Shown: positions 7,015 to 58,902 of the stretch, in pieces
Position numbering within the stretch: position 1 is the first letter of the stretch
Layout of the letters: each line of letters opens with the position of its first letter
Assembly (NCBI RefSeq): GCF_003664255.1
Contig: NZ_RCCV01000001.1
Location: 1,488,001 to 1,552,000, forward strand
Direction: 5' to 3'
DNA: 64,000 nt
Origin: Micromonospora sp. M71_S20
Lineage (GTDB): Bacteria; Actinomycetota; Actinomycetes; Mycobacteriales; Micromonosporaceae
The notes under the pieces: generated by a model
Seen by the model: the letters and a program-made list of their open reading frames with translations, nothing else
What the model was told of the DNA's origin: nothing
Database searches by the model: none
Translations under genes and position numbers: made by a program

Positions 7015-7077
7015 AGGTGATCAGGACGCCATGGACGTTACGCGGCCGTTATGGCGTCCATGGGGTCCTGATCACCT
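7015..7077. repeat. 63-bp dispersed inverted repeat (hairpin), copy 1
   Basis: Arms of 23 nt (AGGTGATCAGGAC then CCATGGACG, one mismatch between arms) flank a short GC-rich centre. A second 63-bp element with nearly the same arms lies at 52748-52810. Here it sits between the divergent GNAT and msrA genes and directly abuts a decayed remnant of the gene family that carries the other copy at its 3' end. In that remnant's orientation the hairpin is also immediately downstream. Confidence 0.85.
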
Positions 7078-7090
7078 CTGACTGGACCGG

Positions 7091-7243
7091 CGTTCGTGGA
7101 TCGCGTCGGTGACTAGGAAGACAATTCGGGTGGCTGTCTGGTACGTCGCCCGTGTGAGACGCGGCATCAGACGGCCCGCCGGGTACCGCCTCGGGTCGAG
7201 CGACATCGGGCGCGGGACGGTAGTGGCAGCAGCGCCGTATCTC
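7091..7243 (-). pseudogene. Remnant of a DUF559-like nuclease-fold gene (3' end only)
   Basis: Read on the minus strand, this stretch aligns by eye with the last ~60 codons of the intact gene at 51821-52732. The best part is TRIVFLVTDAIHER here against ARIVRLVTDAIHER there. Further upstream the match continues in a different frame ([14 protein letters not shown] against the region of FQRDVARLNVLRAAGW), so at least one frameshift separates the two pieces. At DNA level the shared blocks include the reading GTCACnGACGCnATCCACGAACG. The N-terminal two thirds of the gene are absent, and it ends 14 nt before the hairpin. It overlaps the region upstream of msrA. Confidence 0.6.
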
Positions 7244-13066: not shown

Positions 13067-13168
13067 CCGCCGGCCCGCTGTTCCCGGACGCCGTGTGATC
13101 GAAATCCGTTGCCCGGAACGCGAGGGCTGGATAGCGTGGCGGTACACGGGAAAGGAGGTGGTCCAGAC

Positions 13169-13207
13169 TTGTATAGCAATCGGACTCGTGAGGTGGCTGT
13201 CCGCTAG
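13169..13207 (+). CDS. 12-codon leader-peptide-like ORF with near-complete anti-SD match
   Basis: A TTG-initiated frame encodes LYSNRTREVAVR and a TAG stop. It is preceded at 13151-13166 by AAAGGAGGTGGTCCAG, which matches the complement of the 16S rRNA 3' end over about 14 nt with one mismatch, far stronger than any other ribosome-binding site in the window. Reading continues in the same frame upstream as GKGGGPD, so the true start is uncertain. It lies in the 350-bp gap between the NAGGN operon and rnz, followed by hairpins. A role as a leader peptide that couples ribosome movement to folding of the downstream RNA is my inference. Confidence 0.5.
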   Translation: MYSNRTREVAVR

Positions 13208-13210
13208 CCG

Positions 13211-13366
13211 CTGTCCTCGACAGTAAACTCGTCCGCCGCGAGGCGGGCACAGCACCATCGTCGAGACCGTGTGGCAGCGGTGCGGCGAAACCACGACAGC
13301 CACCCGACCCCCGGGGTGCCGGCCCAGTCCAGCCGGCCCGTGCGCGAGCACGGAAGCCCCGGGGGT
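13211..13366 (+). promoter_or_regulatory. Structured leader RNA candidate upstream of rnz
   Basis: Several stems follow the small ORF. CTGTC/GACAG forms a hairpin at 13211-13223 and CCGCC/GGCGG closes on a GCGA loop near 13232-13246. The largest element is 13307-13366: a 10-bp outer stem (ACCCCCGGGG with CCCCGGGGGT) encloses a 5-bp hairpin (13318-13337) and a 6-bp hairpin CCGTGC-GCGA-GCACGG (13338-13353), so it can draw as a three-way junction. GC-rich DNA forms stems easily, so conservation must be tested. No known riboswitch class is recognised. Confidence 0.4.
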
Positions 13367-13417
13367 CGACCCTTTCCGCAGGCCGGGTGGTCGACGCAGC
13401 CGGAGGTCACCGTGTCG

Positions 13418-20653: not shown

Positions 20654-20741
20654 GATCATGAGGTTTGCGGCGGGAATCGCGATCAACTTCGCCGCTAACC
20701 TCATGATCAACGCTGCGGAGAGGCGGGCTGCGGAGAGGCGG
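20654..20741. repeat. 55-bp inverted repeat plus 15-bp tandem repeat
   Basis: Arms of about 20 nt (GATCATGAGGTT then GCGGCG, two mismatches) at 20654-20673 and 20689-20708 flank a 15-nt centre. The arm is built quite differently from the 63-bp hairpin elsewhere in the window. It is followed by two copies of GCTGCGGAGAGGCGG (20712-20741). The surrounding 230 bp hold no gene I can support. Confidence 0.8.
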
Positions 20742-50772: not shown

Positions 50773-51699
50773 ATGGGCGACCAGTGGCGGGCACAGTTCG
50801 ACGCGGAGGTCACCTTCGCCAACGGCGGCGGGCTGCGGACGGACGGGTTCCGCCTGGACATCCCCGGCCGCGACATCACCGACGACGAGTTGGCGGCGCT
50901 GTTCGTCCGGCACCTCGGGCTGCTGATGGTGGCCGAGGTGCGGATCACCGCCCGGACGATCGTCGAGGAGCCGCACAAGGGCGGCCGGGGTGTGGCCGCC
51001 GGGTCCGGCGCGGACGACAGTTCCCGGCGACGGCTGATCGAGCTGAGCCACGTGGTCACCGACGGCATGACGACCCTGCCGGGCTGGCCGGCGCCGCGGA
51101 TCACCGAATGGCTGACGCGGGAGGCGTCCCGGGCCAACTACGCCCCCGGCACCGAGTTCCAGGTGGGGCGGATCGACATGATCGCCAACACGGGCACGTA
51201 CCTGGACACGCCCGCCCACCGTTTCGCCGGGGGCGCCGACCTCGCCGCCACCCCGCTGGACCGCCTCGCCGACCTGCCCGCCGTCGTGGTCCGGGTGCCG
51301 GCCGGCACCCGCGCGGTGGACCGGCTGTTGCTGGCGCCGTACGACGTCGCCGGGCACGCGGTACTGCTGCACACGGGTTGGTCGACGCACTTCGGCACGG
51401 ATCGGTACGGCGCGCCGGAGGCGCCCTACCTCACCGGGGACGGTGCCCGGGCCCTGGTCGACGCGGGCGCCGCCCTGGTCGGCATCGACTCGATCAACAT
51501 CGACGACATGAGCCCGGCGGCGGCCGGCGAGCGGCCGGCGCACAGCTCCCTGCTGGCCGCCGGCGTCCCGATCGTGGAGCACCTGACCGGGCTCGACGCG
51601 CTGCCCCCGACCGGCTTCCGGTTCACGGCCGCCCCGCCGATGGTGGCCGGCATGGGCACCTTTCCCGTCCGCGCCTTCGCCGTGCTCGACGCCGCCTGA
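50773..51699 (+). CDS. Cyclase-family (kynurenine-formamidase-like) protein with N-terminal extension
   Basis: The 308-residue product has two parts. Residues 1-73 form a small domain (AEVTFANGGGLRTDGFRLDIPGRDITDDELA ... EEPHKGGRG); residues 87-308 form the cyclase fold (LIELSHVVTDGMTTLPGWPAP). The usual metal motif HxGTHxDxPxH reads NTGTYLDTPAH at 139-149, so two ligand histidines are replaced by Asn and Tyr while Asp and the last His remain. It may use a changed metal site or act differently. The ATG has no clear ribosome-binding site. The AraC gene precedes it. Confidence 0.78.
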   Translation: MGDQWRAQFDAEVTFANGGGLRTDGFRLDIPGRDITDDELAALFVRHLGLLMVAEVRITARTIVEEPHKGGRGVAAGSGADDSSRRRLIELSHVVTDGMTTLPGWPAPRITEWLTREASRANYAPGTEFQVGRIDMIANTGTYLDTPAHRFAGGADLAATPLDRLADLPAVVVRVPAGTRAVDRLLLAPYDVAGHAVLLHTGWSTHFGTDRYGAPEAPYLTGDGARALVDAGAALVGIDSINIDDMSPAAAGERPAHSSLLAAGVPIVEHLTGLDALPPTGFRFTAAPPMVAGMGTFPVRAFAVLDAA

Positions 51700-51820: not shown

Positions 51821-52732
51821 ATGCCACGGGCACCACGCATCCCCAGCGGGTTGGCGTTCCTCCCGTTCTCCGGCAGTCGGGCCGTCGCCGCCGGCCTGAT
51901 CACGTGGCGGATGCTTCGTGGGCCGTCCTGGCGCCGGCTGCTGCCCGACATCTATGTCCACGTTGACGGCTACCGTGAGAACGACCACCGGATGTGGTGC
52001 GACGCCGTAGCCCTGACCCTGCCGGCGGGGGCCGCCATCAGCGGTCTCAGCGCGGCGTTCCTGTGGGGCGTGGATCTCCTGCCACGCGCGAGCCCCGTCT
52101 TCGTCACGCTTCCGGGGGCGGCCCGCCGACGCTCCACCCAACGTGTGTCGGTCGACCAGAGGTCCCTCTCCGCCCGGGATATCACCCGGTTCGCCGGCTT
52201 GCCGGTCACCACCGGCGTCCGCACTGCCTTCGACCTCGGGCGGCAGCTACCCCGGATGGACGCGCTGGTCGCGGTGGACGCGCTGCTGCATCGGCGGGTG
52301 GTCAAGCTTCCGGCGTTGGGCAGCTACCTGGACACGCACGACGGCTGGCCCGGCACCGCCCAACTGCGCGAGGTGCTCACGTTGGCCGAGCCGCTGAGCG
52401 AGTCCCCGATGGAGACCCGGCTCCGGCTCGTCCTGCACGACGCCGGTCTGCCGCTCCTGACCGCACAGCATGACGTGTATGGCGTCCATGCACAGCGTGG
52501 ACGGATCTTTCTCGGCCGCGTCGACCTCGCCTACCCCCGGTGGAAGATCGCCATCGAGTACGAGGGTGACCACCACCGGGAACGCACCCACTTCCAGCGC
52601 GATGTAGCTCGGCTCAACGTCCTGCGTGCGGCGGGGTGGGTGGTGCTGCGCTTCACAGCGGACGACGTACTGCGGCACCCTGCCCGAATCGTCCGCCTGG
52701 TCACTGACGCAATCCACGAACGTCACAACTGA
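51821..52732 (+). CDS. DUF559-like protein with VSR-type endonuclease fold
   Basis: A 303-residue protein. The N-terminal two thirds resemble AbiEi-type or hypothetical actinobacterial proteins (GAAISGLSAAFLWGVDLLP, LPVTTGVRTAFDLGRQLPRMDALVAVDALL). The C-terminal ~90 residues form a DUF559/VSR-like nuclease region with GRVDLAYPRWKIAIEYEGDHH (D...E.EGDxH), RDVARLNVLRAAGWVVLRFT and IVRLVTDAIHER. It ends 15 nt before a 63-bp hairpin. A remnant of the same family lies beside a second copy of that hairpin 45 kb away. Nuclease activity and mobility are inferred. Codon use is less GC-biased than neighbouring genes. Confidence 0.75.
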   Translation: MPRAPRIPSGLAFLPFSGSRAVAAGLITWRMLRGPSWRRLLPDIYVHVDGYRENDHRMWCDAVALTLPAGAAISGLSAAFLWGVDLLPRASPVFVTLPGAARRRSTQRVSVDQRSLSARDITRFAGLPVTTGVRTAFDLGRQLPRMDALVAVDALLHRRVVKLPALGSYLDTHDGWPGTAQLREVLTLAEPLSESPMETRLRLVLHDAGLPLLTAQHDVYGVHAQRGRIFLGRVDLAYPRWKIAIEYEGDHHRERTHFQRDVARLNVLRAAGWVVLRFTADDVLRHPARIVRLVTDAIHERHN

Positions 52733-52747
52733 TCACGCCCCAGCCAA

Positions 52748-52810
52748 CGGTGATCAGGACACCATGGACCCTAAAACGGCCGGGTTACGTCCATGGCGTC
52801 CTGATCACCG
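52748..52810. repeat. 63-bp dispersed inverted repeat (hairpin), copy 2
   Basis: Arms CGGTGATCAGGAC followed by CCATGGAC (22 nt, one mismatch beyond the first 13) flank a GC-rich centre. The total length equals copy 1 at 7015-7077. It lies 15 nt after the stop of the DUF559-like gene and could terminate transcription between that gene and the convergent S66 peptidase gene. Confidence 0.87.
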
Positions 52811-52971: not shown

Positions 52972-54012
52972 TCAGTAGCGGACTGAGATGTGTCGGGTTG
53001 TCGCGTCGATCCGGACCTCGCCGCCGTACGGGACGATCAGCTGCGGGTCGGTGTGGCCGAGGTCGACGTCGAAGACCACCACGGCGTCCGGCGCGTACGT
53101 GGCGAGTGCCCGGGTGACCGCCTCCCGCTGCGCGTCCGCCCAGGCGCGCCGCTCGTCGGGGCTGTGCGGACGTTCGAAGTCCCACGCCTTCGGCCGGCCG
53201 ACGAGGACCGCCGGGAAGCCGGCGAGCAGTCCCCGCTCCCCCATGTTGCGCAGGATCCGGAACACCTCGACGGCCGGGGGCAGTTCCTCGGAGGTCTCGA
53301 CCATCAGCACCGACCCGGCCAGGTCCCCGGCCGGGGGAACCCGGTCGGCGGCGAGCAGCCAGTGCAGGATCTCCAGGTTGCCGCCCCAGGTGCATCCCTC
53401 GACCACCGTCGACGGCCCCTGCCAGCGCCAGCCCTCGCCCGGGAGCATCTCCGGCTCGTCGGCCAGCGTCGCCGGGTCCCGCCAGTCGTTCGGCCGGTCG
53501 CCCCACTCGGGCGCGGGCGTGAGGTCGTACCAGCCGGAGGTGAAGAGGGCCGCGCGCAGCGAGTCGAAGGTCAGCGGGTGCGGGCTACCCGACCGGCCGA
53601 GGTGCACCAGCACCGACCCGCCGTGGTACGACACGACGCCCAGCCGGTACAGGTGGTTGAGCACGTTCGTGTTGTCGGAGTAGCCGAAGTACGGCTTCGG
53701 GTTGGCCCGCAGCACGTCGTCGTCCAGGTGCGGGGCGACCGTGATCAGGTCGTCCCCGCCCACCGTGGCGAGGACGGCGGTGATCGTCGGGTCGGCGAAG
53801 GCGGCGGTCAGGTCCCGGGCCCGGTCGCGCGGATCGGCGCCGAGCACCCGGGTCGTCGGGTACTCCACCGGTTCCAGGCCGAACTCCTCGCGCAGCCGGC
53901 GCAGCCCCAGCTCGTACACGTGGGGGAAGAGGGCCGGCAGGCCGGCGGAGGGCGAGACGACCGCGACCCGGTCTCCCGGGCGGGGCTTGGGGGGATAGCT
54001 CGGCGACGTCAT
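52972..54012 (-). CDS. S66 family peptidase (LD-carboxypeptidase / MccF-like)
   Basis: A 346-residue serine peptidase of family S66. The nucleophile Ser is in YFGYSDNTNVL, the Glu in LMVETSEELPP and the His in DVDLGHTDPQLIVPYGG. S66 includes peptidoglycan LD-carboxypeptidases and MccF, which inactivates microcin C-type nucleotide peptides; the length and the motif order resemble MccF-type proteins, but no toxin genes are nearby. There is no signal peptide, so it is cytosolic. The ATG is leaderless. Confidence 0.87.
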   Translation of the reverse strand: MTSPSYPPKPRPGDRVAVVSPSAGLPALFPHVYELGLRRLREEFGLEPVEYPTTRVLGADPRDRARDLTAAFADPTITAVLATVGGDDLITVAPHLDDDVLRANPKPYFGYSDNTNVLNHLYRLGVVSYHGGSVLVHLGRSGSPHPLTFDSLRAALFTSGWYDLTPAPEWGDRPNDWRDPATLADEPEMLPGEGWRWQGPSTVVEGCTWGGNLEILHWLLAADRVPPAGDLAGSVLMVETSEELPPAVEVFRILRNMGERGLLAGFPAVLVGRPKAWDFERPHSPDERRAWADAQREAVTRALATYAPDAVVVFDVDLGHTDPQLIVPYGGEVRIDATTRHISVRY

Positions 54013-58804: not shown

Positions 58805-58811
58805 GGGGCGC

Positions 58812-58857
58812 GTAAGGGCCCCTTCCCGACGCTTCCTGCGCGGGGAGGGGCCCTTAC
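58812..58857. terminator. Bidirectional terminator between ppc and the Gly-rich protein gene
   Basis: A 16-bp stem (GTAAGGGCCCCTTCCC arm, near-perfect) with a loop of about 14 nt lies between convergent genes. Confidence 0.85.
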
Positions 58858-58902
58858 GGACATCACCGGCGAACCCGGCCGGCGCGGTCGTCGACGTCGG
58901 CC

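Follow-up and report, generated by a model that had tools for sequence, protein, structure and literature searches.

A gene on the forward strand at 51821-52732 of the window, the 64,000-nucleotide stretch of the Micromonospora sp. M71_S20 genome analysed here, encodes a protein of 303 amino acids in which an AbiEi-like part is predicted to be fused to an I-Bth0305I/Vsr-like nuclease (DUF559 domain), and is followed by a large hairpin that we call type A. The stop codon ends at 52732 and, after a gap of 15 nt, the hairpin occupies 63 bp (52748-52810, with a 59-bp core at 52750-52808), which is the arrangement described in the original prediction made from the letters of the window. A second 63-bp inverted repeat with the same arms had been placed at 7015-7077 and is indeed present there, with a core at 7017-7075 and arms identical to those of the gene hairpin. 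Adjoining this dispersed copy, on the reverse strand at about 7089-7211 (coordinates derived from the flank in a flank comparison), lies a decayed, 5'-truncated tail of the gene. The prediction had described it as a remnant of the last 60 or so codons; the remnant is real and has the VTDAIHER end, and its detectable part is shorter, about 43 codons with net gaps (gene nt 777-904), with 76% identity (E 7e-17) to the orthologous gene of genome G104. Here and below, G-numbers denote genomes of the genus (n=160), of which G000 is that of M71_S20 itself, and L-numbers denote loci. The site at 7015-7077 is occupied in G104 too (L155), where the flank past the remnant is 94% identical over 230 bp, and because of this shared occupancy the site is probably older than the split between M71_S20 and G104. 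At a score of at least 16 and a loop of at least 6, the window contains three inverted repeats: the two just described and a third, at 20654-20708, which belongs to a sister family.

The DUF559 match of the protein has an E-value of 3.5e-8 in a profile search, and AbiEi models of PADLOC match its N-terminal half (best E 9e-11). The predicted structure is consistent with both assignments, joining a two-domain AbiEi fold to a catalytic domain with the EDxHD/Vsr nuclease fold; a single-sequence structure model with a pLDDT of 39.9 was discarded. Residues D235, E246 and H252 of the nuclease domain are invariant across 88 sequences, and may correspond to the known EDxHD/Vsr active-site positions. 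PF01797 (Y1 HUH transposase), unlike the DUF559 and AbiEi models, does not match the protein. At the window locus the gene does not form an operon with a DUF1814/AbiEii toxin gene, its neighbours being a putative cyclase gene upstream and, on the opposite strand, a gene whose product is LD-carboxypeptidase-like.

Type-A hairpins are dispersed in the genome of M71_S20, which has at least 10 copies, eight of them with exact 11-nt outer arms. All eight are 59 bp long, though 47-72 bp was permitted, and a reversed-pattern control found none. Throughout the genus the exact matches listed were likewise all 59 bp with 25-50 nt permitted between the arms, the perfection of the outer arms being partly imposed by the search pattern. 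The hairpin is found in five of the 160 genomes, with exact copies, including that at the gene, numbering 8 in G000, 11 in G065, 17 in G104, 10 in G110 and 6 in G141, and the reversed pattern in none of the 160; in the four genomes other than G000 it also lies 3' of the gene. A pattern scan of viral contigs returned two stretches, 48-bp matches rather than 59, which we took as chance. We compared 52 copies (10 from G000, 11 from G065, 6 from G141, 14 of the 17 exact-arm copies of G104, and 11 from G110), which fall into 29 sites by clustering of their flanks, with the largest cluster split by hand and some ortholog clusters resting on one flank only. These are the gene site, 12 sites common to at least two genomes and 16 seen in a single genome, 10 of the latter in G104. 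Copies within G104 differ at a mean of 4.9 of 59 positions, compared with 10.9 in G000, 11.0 in G065, 10.5 in G141 and 7.2 in G110, and since the G104 copies differ least, the simplest reading is that type A has spread recently in G104. Empty counterparts, which the original prediction had proposed to look for in relatives, were found at both of the sites that could be aligned out of five G104 and G000 sites queried: the L158 site is empty in G000, G065, G110 and G141, with G104 about 190 bp longer, and the L161 site is empty in G000 and G065, with other, longer inserts in G110 and G141. As a separate observation, one G104 locus (L163) has two type-A hairpins at 1513 and 1847, oppositely oriented at a distance of about 330 bp; their outer flanks are similar, and the arrangement resembles a REPIN/BIME pair.

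Most type-A copies away from the gene are lone hairpins, and it is mostly these that disperse; a few have a truncated 3' end of the gene beside them. At E<=1e-5 such a tail adjoins six of the 47 type-A hairpins away from the gene, two of the six being one shared site. The tails start at gene nt 777 (the 7015-7077 site, W1), 787 (L155), 737-738 (L159), 806 (L157), 832 (L154) and 871 (L153); a weaker match was found at L164 (1.8e-5), and a short tail-like flank at the M71_S20 copy L016 was seen by eye only. All six are cut variably on the 5' side and extend to the 3' end of the gene (for L159, in the second-best match); the spacing from tail to hairpin is approximately that at the intact gene in all but L159. 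Relative to the tail, the hairpin is flipped in L153, L154, L157 and L159, as judged from the loop consensus. The tails thus look like copies that started at the hairpin and stopped at variable points in the gene.

Orthologs of the gene with at least 84% identity occur in the same five genomes as the type-A hairpin and in no others of the 160, the G110 copy being split between frames, and a second intact type-A gene was not found in any of the five. In each, gene and hairpin sit between a putative cyclase gene (PF04199 family match; 50773-51699, forward strand, in the window) and an open reading frame on the reverse strand (52972-54012) whose product we take, from its sequence, to be LD-carboxypeptidase-like. 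Among 25 other genomes with the LD-carboxypeptidase-like gene that were fetched, the cyclase lies within the flank in 17, at 13 to about 670 nt, and neither type-A gene nor hairpin is at that spot in any of the 25. The presence of gene and hairpin is therefore clade-specific, through insertion or through loss elsewhere, and on sequence comparison the gene keeps to a single site within its clade and is vertically inherited. The same intergenic spot by the LD-carboxypeptidase-like gene holds other kinds of inverted repeat, identified by eye, in G097, G064, G081 and G072 (L232, L234, L247 and L248), and in this respect is hotspot-like.

The original prediction proposed that gene and hairpin move as a unit, which mostly did not stand: tails of the gene exist at dispersed hairpins, but at only six of 47, and there is no second intact type-A gene. 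It had named two findings that would speak against movement as a unit, a predominance of lone hairpins and vertical inheritance of the gene, and both were made. Transposition of the whole gene with its hairpin was rejected, M71_S20 having no second intact type-A gene. Its comparison to repetitive extragenic palindromes (REPs) and their REP-associated tyrosine transposases (RAYTs) fared better, and is well supported by the clade-specific hairpin type, the dispersed copies and the vertically inherited gene. In RAYT/REP systems most repeats likewise stand alone and the gene is vertically inherited, RAYT genes being kept as single copies.

Pairing of related genes with hairpins of their own extends beyond type A. 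Homologs at 56-69% identity mostly have a 3' hairpin of type B, with GTGGAAC arms, usually 51 bp long and often in tandem arrays. Of the 160 genomes, 44 contain the type-B pattern (control 0), namely 19 of the 24 with a type-B gene and 25 of the 136 others. A copy away from the gene locus is present in 18 of the 24 gene-bearing genomes (18 of the 19 with a gene-adjacent hairpin, none of the five without), and 17 of the 24 have at least two copies elsewhere, versus at least two copies in 10 of the 136 others. The five genomes with a type-B gene and without the pattern (G049, G067, G079, G099 and G148) are those whose gene lacks a 3' hairpin (L086, L088, L090, L091 and L084), and form one clade. 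A search for gene relics in genomes selected for type-B hairpins in the absence of a type-B gene (threshold 1e-60) found them in four of 25 (G022, G047, G059 and G161). In more distant homologs the arms differ again and a hairpin flanks the gene on either side. Type C sits at one locus in the eight genomes of the genus that were compared and in M71_S20, where a hairpin lies on each side of the gene (L040), and the 5' and 3' hairpins of one type-C gene are more alike than hairpins across genomes (six genes compared; 6 of 720 permutations gave a value as low). Four hairpin states on the protein tree require three changes, the minimum (33 of 42 rows labelled), and on these sequence comparisons gene clade predicts hairpin type.

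Some repeats of the window and genome belong beside these families. The inverted repeat at 20654-20708 is a family C hairpin with GATCAWGARGTT arms (GATCATGAGGTT), like those on each side of the M71_S20 gene at C1:2416198-2416890. A homolog with 27% identity at C1:592103-592933 (L043) has a 3' hairpin with GAATCTTGGACAGTTGCC arms and is perhaps a fourth gene-hairpin pair. Inverted repeats with AAGGGCCCCTTCC/AAGGGCACCTTCC-like arms, a further hairpin family, occur in several genomes (window 58811-58858; L047 12108-12167; L171 2724; L010 5543). Elsewhere in the window, 13144-13374 on the forward strand matches the actinobacterial small RNA Ms_IGR-5 of Rfam (91.5 bits).

The association of hairpin and gene exceeds background when inverted repeats scoring at least 15, with a loop of at least 6, are counted within 700 bp of a gene. 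Such a repeat is near 20 of 29 homologs, mainly of clades A and B, on the 3' side in all 20 and absent in nine; near 13 of 18 near-full-length genes from the relic-search genomes, being absent in five (15 of all 30 loci there); and near three of 25 control genes, with 0, 0 and 3 in the far flanks of the three sets. The second gene piece of G110 (L095) was left out of the 29, and 12 of the 30 loci, mostly fragments, were left out of the 18. The loop rule skips L085 (loop of 4) and the imperfect hairpins of L072, L077 and L094, whose 3' hairpins were judged by eye. Ten plasmid or phage records were obtained by protein similarity search, some of their proteins matching nuclease models below the Pfam cut-off; six of the ten have an inverted repeat near the gene, three have the same hairpin on both sides, and two have repeats further off as well, one of them four. 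Hairpins on both sides are seen in Tsukamurella and Arthrobacter. We searched with hairpins from these records against a set of 72,556 plasmid-labelled records, in which both strands of a palindrome can score and copies therefore number about half of the places found. Two queries from Arthrobacter StoSoilB13 found 38 and 10 places, and two from Tsukamurella tyrosinosolvens 20 and 11, in each case in records of that organism only. The first StoSoilB13 query is a hairpin copy at a distance of 1.7 kb from the gene on plasmid 2, and a member of its family adjoins the plasmid-1 gene. As controls, unrelated inverted repeats found 3 and 2 places, and a plain 64-nt flank found 3, one of them full length.

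We interpret gene and hairpins as a REP/RAYT-like system with an unrelated enzyme, in which the protein would act on the hairpins, and give this a probability of about 0.6. It builds on the observed pairing of gene clade with hairpin type, the dispersal of the hairpins, the occupied and empty sites and the younger copies in G104; that the protein binds, cuts and copies, with the hairpin as its substrate, we infer. Most likely, the AbiEi part would recognise both arms of the cognate hairpin, with the nuclease cutting at or next to that hairpin; repair or replication would then copy the hairpin into new intergenic sites, at times with part of the neighbouring 3' end of the gene. The gene would remain resident and vertically inherited, with the hairpins as its non-autonomous dependants.

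Several observations weigh against this interpretation. Since the five type-A genomes form one side of a branch in the neighbouring-gene tree (support 97/96; 30 of 106 matching genomes), the co-occurrence of type-A gene and hairpin counts as one evolutionary event and not five, and much of the congruence between genes and hairpins is plain inheritance of the locus. The insertion of about 190 bp at L158 in G104 exceeds the hairpin and has no clear target duplication, and no clean insertion boundary was found at the two aligned sites (L158 and L161). The only type-B copy of G018 is at the gene, and 21 genomes have type-B hairpins without type-B gene or relic, 12 of them a single copy and others several (13 in G070, 9 in G051, 6 in G164, 5 in G052 and 4 in G156). 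Dispersal was not seen in Microbacterium, the exact hairpin occurring once, at the gene, in three genomes, and the Arthrobacter ERGS1 hairpin found four places in its own records only, equivalent to about the two flanks of the gene. In Nonomuraea gerenzanensis a perfect hairpin with 30-bp arms (L258 5449-5517) occurs at 40 or more places and 1.8 kb from the record's only gene match; a hairpin can therefore also be dispersed without having a gene of this kind next to it. Finally, PF01797 enzymes are present in G104, where the spread looks most recent, in G110 and in G070.

This last point bears on an explanation in which an unlinked factor, such as another transposase, replication or repair, spreads the hairpins, one copy having settled by the gene and been inherited along with it. 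The restriction of type A to a single clade, the numerous type-B hairpins without gene in G070, G051, G164 and G052, and the PF01797 enzyme of G104 and G070 fit such an account, which we nevertheless regard as unlikely given that several gene clades, as well as Tsukamurella and Arthrobacter, repeat the pairing with different hairpins, frequently on each side of the gene, and that 15 of 20 genomes tested, G000, G065 and G141 among them, lack PF01797. A RAYT as the general driver was rejected, with PF01797 in five of the 20 (G104, G110, G070, G006 and G002); it could still apply in G104, where the PF01797 gene has neither a type-A hairpin nor a strong inverted repeat within 1.5 kb. Alternatively, the AbiEi-like part could be a regulator and the dispersed palindromes its binding sites, spread by something other than the nuclease. 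AbiEi and Rv2827c autoregulate via inverted repeats of similar size and spacing, according to passages of PMC7319586, and several subfamilies have a hairpin 5' of the gene. However, the gene-linked hairpin is exclusively 3' in the 20 matches of the mainly A and B set, some dispersed copies carry pieces of gene tail and sit in lineage-specific insertions, and the acidic and histidine residues of the nuclease domain are invariant, so that a regulon of this kind also seems unlikely, if a little less so.

That the hairpins are transcription terminators, or RNA hairpins common to many genes, was the alternative offered by the original prediction and is now disfavoured. Predicted RNA stems of the ten M71_S20 type-A copies and their consensus have energies of -25 to -40 kcal/mol, and 41 of 49 classifiable type-A sites lie between convergent or co-directional genes. 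Eight of the 49 are between divergent genes (on crude gene calls), inner-arm changes mostly lack a compensating change, and the hairpin types are clade-specific, all of which makes this explanation very unlikely; a terminator scan reported no site at the gene's hairpin, which it could not have reported as it covered loops of 3-8 nt only. Least probable is a role in defence, in which the nuclease would cut foreign DNA and the hairpins would be self marks or decoys: the PADLOC matches point that way, but no defence genes are named among the neighbours in five annotated loci, and a self mark would be expected in more than 6-17 copies per genome.

Our preferred reading, a REP/RAYT-like system, places the locus closest to the REP/REPIN repeats and RAYT (TnpA-REP) genes, the 'REPtrons' and 'TIRtrons', which passages of PMC3733652 describe as a gene flanked by its own palindromes of a gene-specific type, with dispersed copies. 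The family studied here is similarly flanked by cognate palindromes, which clades A and B have solely 3' of the gene, and these are dispersed in the genome, with the exceptions of Microbacterium and Arthrobacter ERGS1. It differs in its enzyme, as RAYTs are HUH Y1 tyrosine enzymes and this protein is AbiEi plus Vsr/EDxHD-like, M71_S20 having no PF01797 match in its genome, and in its 6-17 exact copies, compared with the more than 100 usual for REPs in passages of PMC2817692. The EDxHD homing endonuclease I-Bth0305I and Vsr have the related nuclease; unlike them, this gene is linked to dispersed hairpins, has an AbiEi-like N-terminus and was not seen in an intron or intein, and relatives show the gene site, by its neighbour-gene flanks, without the gene. 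The AbiEi type IV antitoxins (Streptococcus agalactiae AbiEi, Rv2827c) have in common with the protein the predicted two-domain AbiEi fold. Passages of PMC3733652 also describe CGTC-tagged REPs, palindromes that resemble the hairpins in being dispersed and that 'apparently lack a dedicated transposase'; they are reported mainly in alpha-Proteobacteria.

For some palindromic repeats of bacteria no enzyme is known, and here a family of uncharacterised nucleases is tied, clade by clade, to hairpins of its own, many of which are dispersed. The enzyme looks like a type not known for spreading hairpins, and the titles and abstract openings listed in searches of open-access papers gave no link of DUF559 or AbiEi proteins to dispersed hairpins. 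We tentatively suggest, at somewhat less than even odds, a separate hairpin-spreading class with members in several orders of the Actinomycetota. In this class an AbiEi-type reader of inverted repeats, joined to an EDxHD/Vsr nuclease, would do the job of RAYT on its own hairpins by double-strand cutting and copying repair rather than single-strand HUH chemistry, and the class may be the missing partner of repeat families without a known enzyme. If the protein does act on the hairpins, REP-like repeats would have arisen at least twice with unrelated enzymes, and a subgroup of DUF559 would gain a function. How orphan repeats of high-GC genomes arose would then be directly testable, with one protein, one 59-bp substrate and the sister families as controls for specificity.
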